Below are positions 2,764-11,840 of a stretch of 24,439 nucleotides of DNA, piece by piece (the stretch's first letter is position 1; each line of letters opens with the position of its first letter). Source of the DNA: a virus; the IMG/VR virus record IMGVR_UViG_3300044641_002057, positions 1 to 24,439 of that record. One strand, written 5' to 3'. Below the pieces are notes generated by a model. It saw only the letters and a program-made list of their open reading frames with translations. It did not search any database and was not told the DNA's origin. Both the position numbers and the translations under genes were made by a program.

Positions 2764-2920
2764 AGGCGGAGAAGAAAACACACTTGCTCACTACAAGCGT
2801 GCAACTAATTGGCACGACAAGTGCGACTTTAAGGGGTGTGTATGCCAGCACAAGACTGGTCCAGGGTACGTAAAGCGGGACGGTTCAAAGGTGCCGTTGA
2901 TGCAAACTCAATCCCCATAG
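2741..2920 (+). CDS. Small Cys/His zinc-binding protein
   Basis: 59 residues from ATG 2741. It carries an ordered set of metal ligands: Cys3-x2-Cys6, His17, His25, Cys28, and Cys33-x-Cys35-x-His37 (CVCQHK). Such a pattern would be unlikely in a non-coding frame, and it resembles small CxxC...CxCQH proteins of actinophages. It overlaps the acidic peptide by 23 bases and, in a different frame, the primase zinc-domain gene by 79 bases. The start has only a weak purine-rich RBS (GAAGAAG). Function unknown; nucleic-acid binding or a protein adaptor role is plausible. Confidence 0.7.
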   Translation: MICQNCLKGGEENTLAHYKRATNWHDKCDFKGCVCQHKTGPGYVKRDGSKVPLMQTQSP

Positions 2921-3219
2921 GAGCAATCGTTTCCCACTATGGAGGTGAGGTACGTGAAGGCAAGAGTGCTTCGGTTCGTTGCTGTTTACATAGTGACAGT
3001 AGACGTTCAGCAGTTATCAATACTTATGACAATTTATATTTCTGCCATACCTGCGGTAAGGGTGGCAACGCAGCTAACTTAGTGTGCATACTAGAGAACT
3101 TGGAGTTTAACGATGGCCTCAAACGTGCAGTCGAAATTGCTGCTGGAAGCGGCGCAGCAATACGCACAGGCAATAAGTCCAGAGGCTCTAGCCGTACTCG
3201 AAGGACGTGGGATCTCTGA
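2842..3219 (+). CDS. DnaG-type primase zinc-binding (CHC2) domain protein
   Basis: 125 residues. I choose ATG 2842, preceded by AAGGGG (2831-2836), over GTG 2836. The core is a CHC2 zinc ribbon: Cys47-x2-His50 ... Cys68-x2-Cys71, with IVSHYGGEV before it and GKGGNAANLV after it, as in DnaG. In DnaG this domain recognises the template and helps start primer synthesis. Here it is a separate gene; the TOPRIM catalytic domain is encoded by the next gene in another frame, beginning inside this one (107-base overlap). The last roughly 25 residues are basic and Ser/Arg/Gly rich, as expected for an out-of-frame reading of the next gene. Together the two proteins probably form the phage primase. Confidence 0.85.
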   Translation: MPAQDWSRVRKAGRFKGAVDANSIPIGAIVSHYGGEVREGKSASVRCCLHSDSRRSAVINTYDNLYFCHTCGKGGNAANLVCILENLEFNDGLKRAVEIAAGSGAAIRTGNKSRGSSRTRRTWDL

Positions 3220-3763
3220 AGAGACAGCAGGACTGTTTCAGTTAGGCACTATTACCAATCCAATCAATGGTCACGAGATGTATCAAGGGTGGCTATCTAT
3301 CCCATACATCACAGCATCTGGTGGTTGTGTTGGCTTTAAGTTTAGAAGATTAGATGACGCCAAGCCTAAGTATGGATCTCCTACTGGGCAGAAGGCACAC
3401 CTGTATAACGTATGTGACATCACTGTTGACTCACCTTACATCGTTGTATGTGAGGGTGAACTAGATGCGATAGTTACTAGCGGTGAACTAGGTATCCCAG
3501 CAGTAGGTGTACCAGGAGTTGCAGCGTGGAAGCCACACTTTCCAAAGCTCTTTGCAGGTTATGAAACTATCTATGTCGTAGGTGACAATGATGTTAAAGA
3601 AGATGGGTCTAACCCAGGTGCAGAGTTTGCTAAGCGTGTGGCTAACGAGGTAATGAACTCACAGATTGTTACACTACCACCAGGTATGGACATCAATGAT
3701 TACTACTTGGCTAATGGAATTGATGCTACGAGGAAGTTACTGATAGGGGAGTCGAATGTATGA
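3113..3763 (+). CDS. Primase TOPRIM catalytic subunit
   Basis: 216 residues from ATG 3113, with GGAG (3102-3105) at suitable spacing inside the upstream gene. Order of elements: a helical N-terminus with a RGISEETAGLFQLG segment (31-45) typical of the linker before the DnaG/Twinkle core, a KPKYGSP segment (84-90), TOPRIM motif EGELDA (115-119; catalytic Glu115), the GDNDVKEDG acidic loop (157-165; Asp158/Asp160), and PPGMDINDYY (189-198) typical of phage primase-helicases. It lacks both the zinc domain (previous gene) and a fused helicase (the separate ATPase gene at 1257). It should synthesise RNA primers for DNA replication together with the CHC2 protein. It overlaps the next gene by 8 bases. 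Confidence 0.88.
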   Translation: MASNVQSKLLLEAAQQYAQAISPEALAVLEGRGISEETAGLFQLGTITNPINGHEMYQGWLSIPYITASGGCVGFKFRRLDDAKPKYGSPTGQKAHLYNVCDITVDSPYIVVCEGELDAIVTSGELGIPAVGVPGVAAWKPHFPKLFAGYETIYVVGDNDVKEDGSNPGAEFAKRVANEVMNSQIVTLPPGMDINDYYLANGIDATRKLLIGESNV

Positions 3764-4172
3764 CAATGACAAGAAGCGAGTGGGACACGATGCTACAAAC
3801 TTTGCAGCATATGGGCTTCCAGATCCTGAGCTACGATACATCAACGGAAGTAGTATTGATAAAGCCGATAGCGACAAGATAGATTACAAGCACGTCAAGT
3901 TTGTCACTGATGTATGGGAAGTCTTAGATGGTGCAGGTAATCTGCTCATCAAGAAGCACAAAGACTACGGCCCAACTAACATTAGTCTCTCACCTGGTGG
4001 ACCGCTCAATGGTTTGCGTGTGCGTATGCACGACAAGACTGCACGCATCAACCACTTGATTGATACTGGTGCAACACCAGAGAACGAGTCACTACGAGAT
4101 AGCTTCATTGATCTACTGAACTACAGTGCTATCGCACTGATGGTCTTAGATGGTAAGTGGCCTCGTGACTGA
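3756..4172 (+). CDS. DUF1599 / Nmad1-like protein (nucleotide-modification associated)
   Basis: 138 residues, ATG start overlapping the primase gene by 8 bases, with AGGGGAG upstream (3745-3751). The C-terminal two thirds carry the characteristic string KKHKDYGPTNIS, then PLNGLRVRMHDKTARI, then NESLRDSFIDLLNYS and a final ALMVLDGKWP. This matches the DUF1599 / nucleotide modification associated domain 1 family of phages and bacteria. That family is predicted, not proven, to act on modified nucleotides or DNA. Conserved His, Lys, Asp and Arg residues are present, so the core looks intact. The N-terminal 45 residues are less conserved-looking. A role in dNTP metabolism or base modification is inferred. 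Confidence 0.78.
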   Translation: MYDNDKKRVGHDATNFAAYGLPDPELRYINGSSIDKADSDKIDYKHVKFVTDVWEVLDGAGNLLIKKHKDYGPTNISLSPGGPLNGLRVRMHDKTARINHLIDTGATPENESLRDSFIDLLNYSAIALMVLDGKWPRD

Positions 4173-4797
4173 ACTGCACCCAGTAATCTATGACCTAGTG
4201 CCTAGTGTTGCTAACACTATCCATCGTAGGTATAAGAACCACGTTGAGAAGGATGATATCAAGCAAGAGCTGATGGCGTGGGCTATGACTAGAGTAGAAG
4301 ATCACATCATTGATCTAATGGAACCTATCGAAGAGCGACGCAGACACAACGAACAGCGCATTGCGTGGCAGATGAAGCGTGCAGGAGAGCGCTATGCACG
4401 CAAGGAGAAGGCTGCTAAGTCTGGCTACCAGACTAATGATGAGGTTTACTACGAGTCAGCAACCCTTGGTCAGTTACTACCCTTTGTTATTGCATCAGTC
4501 ATAGATGGCACAGTATTAGAGCAAGCACAAGAGATGATTAGAGATGGGCAACCTAAAGGTTCATCATCTCCAGCAGAAGGTGGCAACCTGCTTGCTAACC
4601 TCATTGACATCAAGAAAGGTTTTCTTAAATTAGATCAAGAAGACCAAGCCCTCTTGCGTATGCGCCATCACGAGAGCTTTACCCTGCAACAGATAGCACA
4701 AGTATTAGAGTGTGCCATCTCTACCGCAGATCGTAGGTGTGCTCAGGCTTTGCGTAGGTTGCAGGATAATCTAGGCGGGGTTAGTCCCTGGCAATGA
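4150..4797 (+). CDS. Sigma-70-like RNA polymerase sigma factor
   Basis: Up to 215 residues. The start is uncertain: ATG 4150 or GTG 4165, both inside the upstream gene and with poor RBSs. Residues about 157-207 form a region-4-like helix-turn-helix (LKLDQEDQALLRMRHHESF, then LQQIAQVLECAISTADRRCAQALRRL), where the second helix would read the -35 element. The N-terminal part (about 15-50, IHRRYKNHVEKDDIKQELMAWA) resembles a reduced region 2. The middle (60-150) is charged and unlike standard sigma factors. Such factors are common in actinophages and probably direct host RNA polymerase to phage promoters, perhaps the late head genes. It ends in an ATGA overlap with the next gene. Confidence 0.78.
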   Translation: MVSGLVTELHPVIYDLVPSVANTIHRRYKNHVEKDDIKQELMAWAMTRVEDHIIDLMEPIEERRRHNEQRIAWQMKRAGERYARKEKAAKSGYQTNDEVYYESATLGQLLPFVIASVIDGTVLEQAQEMIRDGQPKGSSSPAEGGNLLANLIDIKKGFLKLDQEDQALLRMRHHESFTLQQIAQVLECAISTADRRCAQALRRLQDNLGGVSPWQ

Positions 4798-9216: not shown

Positions 9217-9251
9217 TTGTAACCCTTTCGTTAGTTGCTTACATAGAGAAA

Positions 9252-9278
9252 TTTATACGGGACTATGCCGTATGTCAA
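9252..9278 (-). promoter_or_regulatory. Leftward promoter of the small-gene cassette
   Basis: On the minus strand a perfect -35 TTGACA (9273-9278) is followed after 15 bases by TATAAA (9252-9257), or after 17 bases by the overlapping TAAATT. It is the only consensus-quality promoter seen and lies 36 bases before the first leftward gene. The short 15-base spacer, or the choice of -10 register, may make it factor dependent. Confidence 0.7.
9255..9273. promoter_or_regulatory. Operator-like dyad in the promoter spacer
   Basis: Inverted repeat ATACGG (9255-9260), 7-base spacer, CCGTAT (9268-9273). It occupies the space between -35 and -10, where a bound repressor or MerR-type activator would act. 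The arms are exact. No cognate regulator is identified in the window; WhiB-like or external factors are possible. Confidence 0.5.
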
Positions 9279-9506
9279 GCGATAACAAGCATTTAATGGT
9301 AACAGTTTGATAACGTTTTGCTGGGGACTTCCTGAGAATGGCAGAGGGTCACAGGTCATAAGTAGTTGAATCTTCAATCACTTACGGGCTTTCAATCGGT
9401 GGACAATTAGGGCGGTGAATGTCTAGGGCTTGGAACTGTAAAGGGTTACTTAATAGTTGGGGATTACCTGAGAGATACCGCCCAGAACCTAGCAAGCCCC
9501 TGCTTT

Positions 9507-9518
9507 CTTTCTAGAAAG
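9507..9518. repeat. Perfect 12-base palindrome beside DnaA boxes
   Basis: CTTTCTAGAAAG is a perfect palindrome and directly abuts the first DnaA box at 9519. It may be a binding site for a dimeric protein in the putative origin. Confidence 0.55.
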
Positions 9519-9542
9519 TTATCCACAGGCTTATCCACAGGC
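9519..9542 (+). repeat. Tandem DnaA boxes (2 x 12-base direct repeat)
   Basis: TTATCCACAGGC occurs twice back to back (9519-9530, 9531-9542). Each copy contains TTATCCACA, a perfect match to the bacterial DnaA-box consensus TTATNCACA. A 12-base spacing places both on nearly the same helical face, favouring cooperative DnaA binding. I found no other intact copy in the window by eye. Confidence 0.85.
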
Positions 9543-9543
9543 A

Positions 9544-9565
9544 GGGCAGGGGGTGGGGGGCAGGG
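9544..9565 (+). other. G-quadruplex motif
   Basis: Four G-tracts of 3, 5, 6 and 3 bases (9544-9546, 9549-9553, 9555-9560, 9563-9565) with loops of 2, 1 and 2 bases. This meets the canonical intramolecular G4 rule with short loops, which favours stability. It begins two bases after the DnaA boxes. Folding is predicted, not shown. Confidence 0.6.
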
Positions 9566-9688
9566 CAAACAGCCAGCAACAGACACCCCCCGTTGTTGAA
9601 TTGTGCAGGCGTGGGCCGTGTACTCCCCAACAAAATATATTTGCTAAAGTGAAAGCTCATATAGCCTCTGACCTGCGGTTTTATATAC

Positions 9689-9704
9689 TGTGATGAAGGT
9701 CACA
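9689..9704. promoter_or_regulatory. CRP/GlxR-type binding site
   Basis: TGTGA-N6-TCACA, an exact match to the CRP-family dyad used by E. coli CRP, corynebacterial GlxR and mycobacterial CRP. On the minus strand a weak TTACAA/TATATA promoter-like pair with 17-base spacing brackets it. A second nested inverted repeat (TGACCT 9669-9674, AGGTCA 9697-9702) overlaps. Suggests control by a host cAMP-responsive regulator. Confidence 0.6.
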
Positions 9705-9789
9705 TTGTAAAAACGAGAAATGCGTTAAATTTCCTGCCTTATATATAGTAAGGGGTTTTAATAGGAAAAGCCCTGAGCTGCTACGGTAT

Positions 9790-9805
9790 GGCCTCTAGCG
9801 AGGCC
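9790..9805. repeat. GC-rich hairpin
   Basis: GGCCTC (9790-9795) and GAGGCC (9800-9805) form a perfect 6-bp stem with a TAGC loop. There is no T-run after it, so it is not a standard terminator; it may structure the leader RNA or DNA near the packaging gene. Confidence 0.45.
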
Positions 9806-9849
9806 CCTAGGCCGAGCACTAACTTACCCCTCAGTTCGCTGTGGCTCCT

Positions 9850-9866
9850 TCGGGCGCTAAGCCCGA
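9850..9866. repeat. Hairpin upstream of terminase
   Basis: TCGGGC (9850-9855) and GCCCGA (9861-9866) pair perfectly around GCTAA. No T-run follows. Second of two compact hairpins in the leader before the terminase gene. Confidence 0.45.
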
Positions 9867-9896
9867 CCTGCCCAGTACTTTTAGTGGGGATAGGTC

Positions 9897-9912
9897 TATC
9901 TACTGGTAGATA
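9897..9912. promoter_or_regulatory. 16-base dyad upstream of terminase
   Basis: TATCTAC (9897-9903), TG, GTAGATA (9906-9912): a perfect 7-base inverted repeat about 70 bases before the terminase start. Followed by AAAA, so not a terminator on the plus strand. Operator or terminase recognition element are the likely options. Confidence 0.45.
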
Positions 9913-9980
9913 AAACCTTCCTCGCCTAGTAATGAAACGAACCGATTCCGGCCGGTCCCCAATAAATTTTAGGAGATCAC

Positions 9981-11840
9981 GTGGCTGACAATAGTGCCGA
10001 CATCGCCAAGAGAATTATCCTTGGCTGTGTTGCAGAGGGTATGACCATTGAGGCAGCTTGTGCCTCGGCAGGTAAATCCATTAAGACTTACGAGTACTAC
10101 CGACGTACCGATAAGGTCTTTACAGACAAGGTTGACCGAACACGCCTTGGTCTAAAGGACAAGTCCTTTGCAGCCTCCGATGTTCACGATCTTACCTTTG
10201 CCGAGTTTCGCCAGAAGTACCTACACTCCCGCACCTTTCCACACCAGCAGAACCTGATAGATGTAATCGAAGGCCGCGAACCTGGCTGGCTACATCCTTC
10301 TATGAAGTACGAAAAGGGTCTGGCTAATAACAGAATCCTTTTGAACATCCCGCCCAACCACGCCAAGTCTATGACTGTGACCATTGATTACGTCACTTGG
10401 CAGGTTTGTCAGAACCCTAACTTTAGAGTACTCATCGTATCTCAGACGCAGCAGTTAGCTGCAGACTTTCTCTACGCCATCAAGCAACGCCTGACTCATC
10501 CTAATTATGAAGCACTCCAACAGGCTTACGCTGCTGGCGTAGGGTTTAACTCTAAGTCAGCCTCGTGGCAGGCTACCCGTGTCACCTTTGGTGATGAGCT
10601 TCGTGAGTCCAGCGAAAAGGACCCGAACATCGAGGCCGTTGGTATCGGTGGTCAGATCTACGGTAAGCGTGCCGATATGATTATCGTAGACGACGCCGTT
10701 ACCTTGAAGAACGCAAACGAGTTTGAGAAGCAAATCCGCTGGTTAACCCAGGACGTGCGCTCTCGTCTTAACCCTACTGGTAAGTTAATTATTATTGGTA
10801 CACGAGTTTCTGCAGTAGACTTATACAAGGAGCTACGCTCCGAAGACCGCTACCCTGGTGGCTTGGTCCCTTGGACTTACCTTGCAATGCCAGCGTTATT
10901 AAAGACAGATGAGAACCCTGATAACTGGGAGACTCTCTGGCCTGCATCCGATGCCGCATTTGATGGACAGACAGAAACAGATTTGAATGAGGACGGCCTA
11001 TATCCACGTTGGAATGGTCGTAACCTTTACAATGAACGCCAAGCTATGGATGCAAGTACCTGGGCTTTAGTTTATCAGCAGCAAGATATCTCAGATGATG
11101 CCATCTTTGATCCAGTATGTGTGCGAGGTTCTATAGATGGTATGCGTAAAGCAGGTCGCTTGGTTCCTGGGAACCCAGGCCATCCGCGTGATGTTAACGG
11201 CTTTTCTTTTATTTGTGGTCTTGATCCCGCTATGGTTGGTGATACAGCCGTCGTTTGTTACGCTGTTGATAGGGCTACACATAAACGCTATATCGTTGAT
11301 GCTATTAAAATTACTAGGCCAACGCCTGCTGCAATCCGTCAGCTAATCTTTGACTGGACTAGCCTCTACTCACCCAGTGAGTGGATAGTAGAGAAGAACG
11401 CATTTCAATCTTTCTTAACGCAAGATGAGGGCATCCGTGCCAACCTTGCAAGCCGAGGAGTACTACTACGTGAACACCATACAGGAACCAACAAGTGGGA
11501 CTCCGGCTTCGGAGTTGCCAGTATGTCCACTTTGTTTGGAACGAAGCAGCACGATGGTAAACATCATAGAGACAACCTTATCCATCTTCCTAGCGATCAA
11601 ACAGAAAATATCAAAGCTCTTATCGAGCAATTGATTACGTGGTCGCCTACTACTAAAGGTAAGACCGATATGGTAATGGCTCTTTGGTTCTGTGAGATCA
11701 GAGCACGCGAGATGCTTAACCAAGGTATGCACAAGACACACCACTTAAAGAATCCTTTTCTATCTCGCTACGAGGTAGGCAAACGAACAGTTGTCAACAT
11801 AGATGAACTGCTCGCAGAAAAAGATCGCACATTCATCTAA
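9981..11840 (+). CDS. terL: Terminase large subunit with N-terminal helix-turn-helix
   Basis: 619 residues, GTG start with TAGGAG (9970-9975) 5 bases upstream. Residues about 8-55 form a helix-turn-helix (TIEAACASAGKSIKTYEYY) like that of a small terminase, perhaps giving DNA recognition since no separate small subunit is seen. ATPase: Walker A-type PPNHAKS (124-130, Ala in place of the usual Gly, as in several phage terminases), Walker B IIVDD (234-238), coupling motif GTR (273-275). Nuclease: Asp415 (CGLDPA), Glu471 (WIVEKNAF) and Asp563 (KTDMVMAL), the RNase H-like triad. It packages DNA into procapsids. The module starts here and all following genes share its direction. Confidence 0.95.
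   Translation: MADNSADIAKRIILGCVAEGMTIEAACASAGKSIKTYEYYRRTDKVFTDKVDRTRLGLKDKSFAASDVHDLTFAEFRQKYLHSRTFPHQQNLIDVIEGREPGWLHPSMKYEKGLANNRILLNIPPNHAKSMTVTIDYVTWQVCQNPNFRVLIVSQTQQLAADFLYAIKQRLTHPNYEALQQAYAAGVGFNSKSASWQATRVTFGDELRESSEKDPNIEAVGIGGQIYGKRADMIIVDDAVTLKNANEFEKQIRWLTQDVRSRLNPTGKLIIIGTRVSAVDLYKELRSEDRYPGGLVPWTYLAMPALLKTDENPDNWETLWPASDAAFDGQTETDLNEDGLYPRWNGRNLYNERQAMDASTWALVYQQQDISDDAIFDPVCVRGSIDGMRKAGRLVPGNPGHPRDVNGFSFICGLDPAMVGDTAVVCYAVDRATHKRYIVDAIKITRPTPAAIRQLIFDWTSLYSPSEWIVEKNAFQSFLTQDEGIRANLASRGVLLREHHTGTNKWDSGFGVASMSTLFGTKQHDGKHHRDNLIHLPSDQTENIKALIEQLITWSPTTKGKTDMVMALWFCEIRAREMLNQGMHKTHHLKNPFLSRYEVGKRTVVNIDELLAEKDRTFI

Follow-up and report, generated by a model that had tools for sequence, protein, structure and literature searches.

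Tandem DnaA boxes in a probable direct terminal repeat of an uncultured actinophage: a candidate host-DnaA module at the genome end

Introduction

The window analysed here, 24,439 nucleotides in length, represents a linear genome fragment from an uncultured freshwater phage and carries two consensus DnaA boxes in tandem upstream of the terminase large subunit gene (terL). We interpret these boxes, from comparison with related phages, as a binding module for host DnaA that lies in the direct terminal repeat (DTR) and serves a function of the genome end, an interpretation to which we assign a probability of roughly one half; the boxes are probably not an oriC-like start site of the genome. Host DnaA would bind both boxes cooperatively, and the complex would most likely cause the strands to open or replicate locally, so that the one DTR copy lying between genomes in a concatemer is duplicated; alternatively, it may protect the ends or hold them in synapsis. 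To our knowledge, the way in which short-DTR phages recover two repeat copies from the one present in a concatemer is poorly understood outside T7. If the interpretation is correct, a recurring host-DnaA module in DTRs would represent a concrete host factor acting at genome ends.

The genes of the phage include those for a DnaB-like helicase, a RusA-type resolvase, a sigma-like factor and a WhiB protein, together with a primase divided between two overlapping frames, a content that makes an actinobacterial host likely. The WhiB gene (995–1264; Pfam PF02467) itself points to such a host. The zinc-finger and Toprim parts of the primase occupy the overlapping frames 2836–3219 and 3113–3763, a split that is also annotated in the Streptomyces phage Immanuel3, and the gene for the sigma-like factor lies at 4150–4797.

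Results

The site in the window

A first-pass annotation had described the site as a candidate origin, consisting of a palindrome that abuts a tandem repeat with a DnaA box in each copy, placed within a large non-coding stretch and 90–230 bases from AT-rich tracts, in a phage with its own helicase and primase genes. As a description this holds throughout. The arrangement is exact at 9507–9542; the surrounding intergenic stretch (9217–9980, 764 bases) is the largest in the window and divergent, with leftward small genes on one side and terL on the other; the AT-rich minima, located at 9633 and 9738, are roughly 90 and 200 bases from the boxes; and both replication genes are present. The features of the region are as follows.

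9401–9424, no strand assigned: dyad GGACA-N14-TGTCT, upstream of the DTR core, as read from the sequence
9456–9467, plus strand: GTTGGGGATTAC, an inverted copy of the boundary motif GTACTCCCCAAC at 9620–9631
9474–9620, no strand assigned: inferred core of the DTR, its right edge placed by homology and its left edge uncertain
9507–9518, no strand assigned: perfect 12-base palindrome CTTTCTAGAAAG, with no gap before the 12-base repeats
9519–9542, plus strand: direct repeat of 2 x 12 bases, unit TTATCCACAGGC, copies at 9519–9530 and 9531–9542
9519–9527, plus strand: DnaA box 1, TTATCCACA, at -102 relative to the boundary 9620/9621
9531–9539, plus strand: DnaA box 2, TTATCCACA, at -90 relative to the boundary and 12 bases from box 1
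9543–9566, plus strand: G-rich stretch, ranking with the window's most stable DNA and following the boxes in many, not all, relatives
9584–9601, plus strand: conserved motif CACCCCCCGTTGTTGAAT, of which the part GTTGTTGAA matches GTTGTTAA of Streptomyces relatives
9621–9652, plus strand: conserved AT-rich sequence TACTCCCCAACAAAATATATTTGCTAAAGTGA, just beyond the inferred right edge of the DTR
9981–11840, plus strand: terL

Sites of the form TTWTNCACA number four in the window against 2.7 expected, so that the number of boxes is ordinary and their adjacency is not. Searches of the region against Rfam and for tRNA genes returned no Rfam match and no tRNA.

The boxes are kept exact and helically phased among box-carrying relatives

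A search with TerL identified hundreds of related contigs, of which the best 80 were retrieved, and the region was anchored in more than 100 contigs by the conserved 32-base sequence 9621–9652. At least one exact forward DnaA box is present in 61 of 143 distinct homologous segments. The 120 boxes found overall compare with 0.1 expected from composition shuffles, which bears out the earlier judgement that tandem boxes are very unlikely by chance. Forward boxes with a single mismatch number only 11, indicating that the boxes are kept exact; they are under strong constraint, in the form of purifying selection. The first box of the box-carriers mostly starts 100–107 bases ahead of the boundary, in otherwise variable surroundings, and the second is most often found at -90.

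Spacings between neighbouring boxes in the phage family fall into three classes of 11–13 (34 cases), 18–22 (18) and 29–32 bases (8), with none in between; these correspond approximately to one, two and three helical turns, counted over family sequences that are not independent of one another. A period of about 10–10.5 bases also fits the boxes of other phages (Rayleigh R 0.65, n 25). Spacing near whole helical turns is the pattern expected if DnaA binds cooperatively on one face of the helix. The palindrome stands out less than the boxes do: a dyad arm of six bases abuts a box in only 4 of 57 box-carriers. Shorter arms of at least four bases do so in 18 of the 57, compared to about 4% in shuffles, and the four bases that most commonly precede a box are AAAG (33 cases), part of the palindrome's right half.

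The boxes lie beside the edge of a probable terminal repeat

The closest annotated phages with named hosts are the Streptomyces Beephvirinae, whose TerL is about 43% identical and whose records start approximately 620–770 bases upstream of terL, the Abafar record being offset relative to the others. Six of them (Immanuel3, Zeigle, RosePharie, Stella, Dennebes and FlowerPower) have exact DTRs of 253–275 bp with a common right edge, GTTGTTAA...GAGTG/AGTCCC (the slash marks the edge), in which GTTGTTAA stands about 30 bases ahead of the boundary. At 9620/9621 the window reads GTTGTTGAAT...GTG/TACTCCCC, followed by a TGTGA-N6-TCACA site as in most of the Streptomyces relatives. Sequence comparison therefore places the conserved right edge of a Beephvirinae-type DTR upstream of terL in the window too and, given this homology, the boxes are probably inside the DTR of this phage, 80–100 bases in from its edge. 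The window being a linear fragment, two DTR copies are not directly visible in it, and we infer the repeat from its edge. One relative assembles as a circle of 39.4 kb, the outcome expected if a terminal repeat had collapsed in assembly.

The left edge would fall at 9474 if it is marked by contig starts, and at about 9356 if the repeat is as long as in the Streptomyces relatives. Contig starts of relatives from different metagenomes cluster in the segment, at -121/-122, -137 and -147/-148 relative to the DTR edge, and such recurrent offsets may mark physical ends or have arisen in assembly; the position of the left edge is uncertain because the starts at -121/-122 may reflect an assembler k-mer effect. 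The DTRs of the Streptomyces relatives contain no exact DnaA box. Ancestral boxes were considered for them, but only one-mismatch boxes within TGTCC-rich repeats were found, which we take to be chance occurrences.

Strand-biased G-rich words (GGTTAGGG, GGTTGG and AGCTGCAAGGG) are found upstream of terL in the relatives L009–L084, from about -600 to -150 of the terL-side anchor, within the terminal repeat or immediately beyond it, and are repeated in ways specific to each relative; it is possible that they are recombination or nuclease-control words. One further contig (IMGVR_UViG_3300002930_000474, 49744 bases) appears chimeric, since it carries a second, partial terL that is 80% identical to the query.

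Promoter-side elements

Beyond the DTR edge, the window has a CRP/GlxR-type operator, TGTGATGAAGGTCACA, a perfect TGTGA-N6-TCACA at 9689–9704. Of 139 relatives, 138 have the operator with no more than one mismatch (97 of them without any), compared to 0.5% in shuffles; its position in relatives ranges from +58 to +81 counted from the DTR edge, and it is perfect in six of the seven Streptomyces relatives checked. This suggests that the late operon is under host cAMP-receptor control. Upstream of terL are two similar promoter-like elements (9672–9690 and 9733–9748), each with CCTGC followed by an AT-rich, TTATATA-like stretch; one or two such elements are present in most relatives, and the sigma-like factor encoded by the phage itself may recognise them.

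The situation of the boxes in a divergent intergenic region, about 150 bases from the conserved CRP-type site and the promoter-like repeats, would suit a regulatory role of DnaA in transcription, either of the terL operon or of the genes running leftward. We consider this the most improbable of the explanations weighed here, since phages that lack boxes conserve the promoter-side elements just as well and since regulation would leave the box arrays in other phages' DTRs unexplained.

Boxes are exchanged for GACA/TGTC dyads

The first-pass annotation had proposed comparing the site in related phages, and this comparison does not favour an origin: 82 of the 143 distinct segments have no boxes, and a TerL tree of 150 rows shows 23 changes of box presence, at least 20 of which are forced by well-supported branches. 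The box-less segments are of nearly equal length and often contain a GACA-N-TGTC dyad, which resembles the one at 9401–9424 of the window and takes the place of the boxes. The two core types exclude one another: none of the 55 box-carriers has a GACA/TGTC dyad in its core, as against 49 of the 71 others. Among 128 gene families tested within 10 kb leftward, none is convincingly tied to core type (best p 6e-4). Repeated swaps of boxes and dyads, combined with the lack of a convincingly tied gene family within 10 kb to the left, mark the boxes as a replaceable module, and the phage's basic replication machinery appears to be independent of them. In box-less relatives, another protein bound to the GACA/TGTC dyads in the same segment would do the equivalent job.

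These results bear directly on the origin proposal, according to which DnaA on the boxes would open the AT-rich DNA at 9633–9663 and the phage or host helicase would be loaded there, perhaps with the origin at the genome junction. Two perfect consensus boxes close together, conserved AT-rich DNA about 90 bases away, a phage-encoded DnaB-like helicase and primase, and the occurrence of the same tandem near the beginning of one or more complete bacterial chromosome records are all as such an origin would have them. However, there are only two boxes, and the DNA beside them, far from melting readily, is among the most stable in the window: the 60-base stretch starting at 9543 belongs to the 0.4% that are hardest to melt. 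Most relatives dispense with the boxes, and no gene family in the left 10 kb convincingly accompanies the switch. GC skew, which had been suggested as a check, follows gene orientation and is hence uninformative on the origin. We therefore regard an origin as unlikely, and a place within the inferred DTR as the better reading of the boxes.

DnaA boxes at the ends of other phages

Searches for tandem boxes located comparable arrangements in other phages. Exact DTRs hold four boxes in Shigella phage A7 (177 bp), five in Enterobacter phiEap-1 (195 bp), six in Klebsiella ZK1 (292 bp) and seven in a metagenomic podophage contig with a T7-type primase-helicase (221 bp), while the T5-like phage BF23 has three boxes within its annotated left terminal repeat. 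In Microbacterium phage Squash the boxes lie about 140 bases inward of an exact 204-bp DTR. Arthrobacter phage Tiff81 has boxes less than 100 bases from an end without a terminal repeat, so that the genome end rather than the repeat may be what matters. In four linear contigs with boxes near an end (G032–G035), an end repeat was looked for and none was seen. Of 120 stretches with tandem boxes among the matches listed from IMG/VR, 42 are no more than 1 kb away from the end of their contig, compared to 19.6 expected. Since these phages were found by way of their boxes, they demonstrate recurrence and not frequency among DTR phages.

Replication of T7-type phages proceeds without DnaA, yet some of them also have box arrays in their DTRs, a further argument against an origin. 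Such arrays recur in phages with and without common replication machinery, and DnaA boxes in phages should not automatically be taken for replication origins.

Discussion

A genome-end function is favoured by three observations: there is no unwinding element adjacent to the boxes, most relatives lack boxes, and some DnaA-independent phages of T7 type have them. DnaA sites at the same place in unrelated phages imply that DnaA probably helps to handle phage genome ends. More broadly, and tentatively, DnaA-box arrays in short DTRs could be a convergent genome-end element through which DnaA helps to duplicate, protect or synapse the repeat, and which in this actinophage family is exchanged, at nearly fixed segment length, with a different, dyad-binding factor.

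Two other explanations must be set against a genome-end function. Boxes on replicating phage DNA might act as a sink that sequesters host DnaA and halts host initiation. Location in a DTR doubles the box copies per genome, extra boxes carried on plasmids are known to titrate DnaA in E. coli (PMC5835720), and a sink would account both for the patchy distribution and for arrays of four to seven boxes in phages able to do without DnaA. But two boxes per copy are few and a sink would not need a fixed distance to the repeat edge, so that we think this decidedly doubtful. The second explanation is a pause in DNA entry, of the type of the T5 injection stop signal, in which DnaA or DNA structure holds the entering end. 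The T5 signal is described as containing repeats, palindromes and DnaA boxes (PMC13250531), BF23 has its three boxes in a terminal repeat, and boxes, repeats and a palindrome likewise occur together in the window, within what we take to be its terminal repeat. The inferred DTR is, however, only about 0.15–0.3 kb long and non-coding, leaving no pre-early genes to deliver, and an entry pause is accordingly very improbable.

For the injection stop signal of T5, DnaA boxes are already on record (PMC13250531), and this was the sole precedent that searches of the open-licence literature found; the same searches yielded no description of short terminal repeats with DnaA-box arrays, nor of box arrays exchanged for another core.

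Comparison with known systems

The site shares tandem consensus boxes with bacterial oriC but differs in having no adjacent unwinding element, only two boxes and no trio motif that could be seen. It resembles E. coli datA and other titration sites as a high-affinity box cluster outside an origin, and is unlike them in having only two boxes and a fixed relation to the genome end. T5-like terminal repeats also contain tandem DnaA boxes and palindromes (in the window, within an inferred repeat), but are about 10 kb long, carry pre-early genes and belong to a two-step DNA transfer. In the Autographiviridae A7, phiEap-1 and ZK1, a short exact DTR (177–292 bp) similarly contains several boxes in one orientation, although these are unrelated phages with four to six boxes and T7-type replication machinery. 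The Streptomyces Beephvirinae have longer DTRs (253–275 bp) devoid of exact DnaA boxes, yet they match the window in TerL (about 43%), in the split primase, in the position upstream of terL, in the homologous right edge and, in most of them, in the CRP-type site downstream of that edge.
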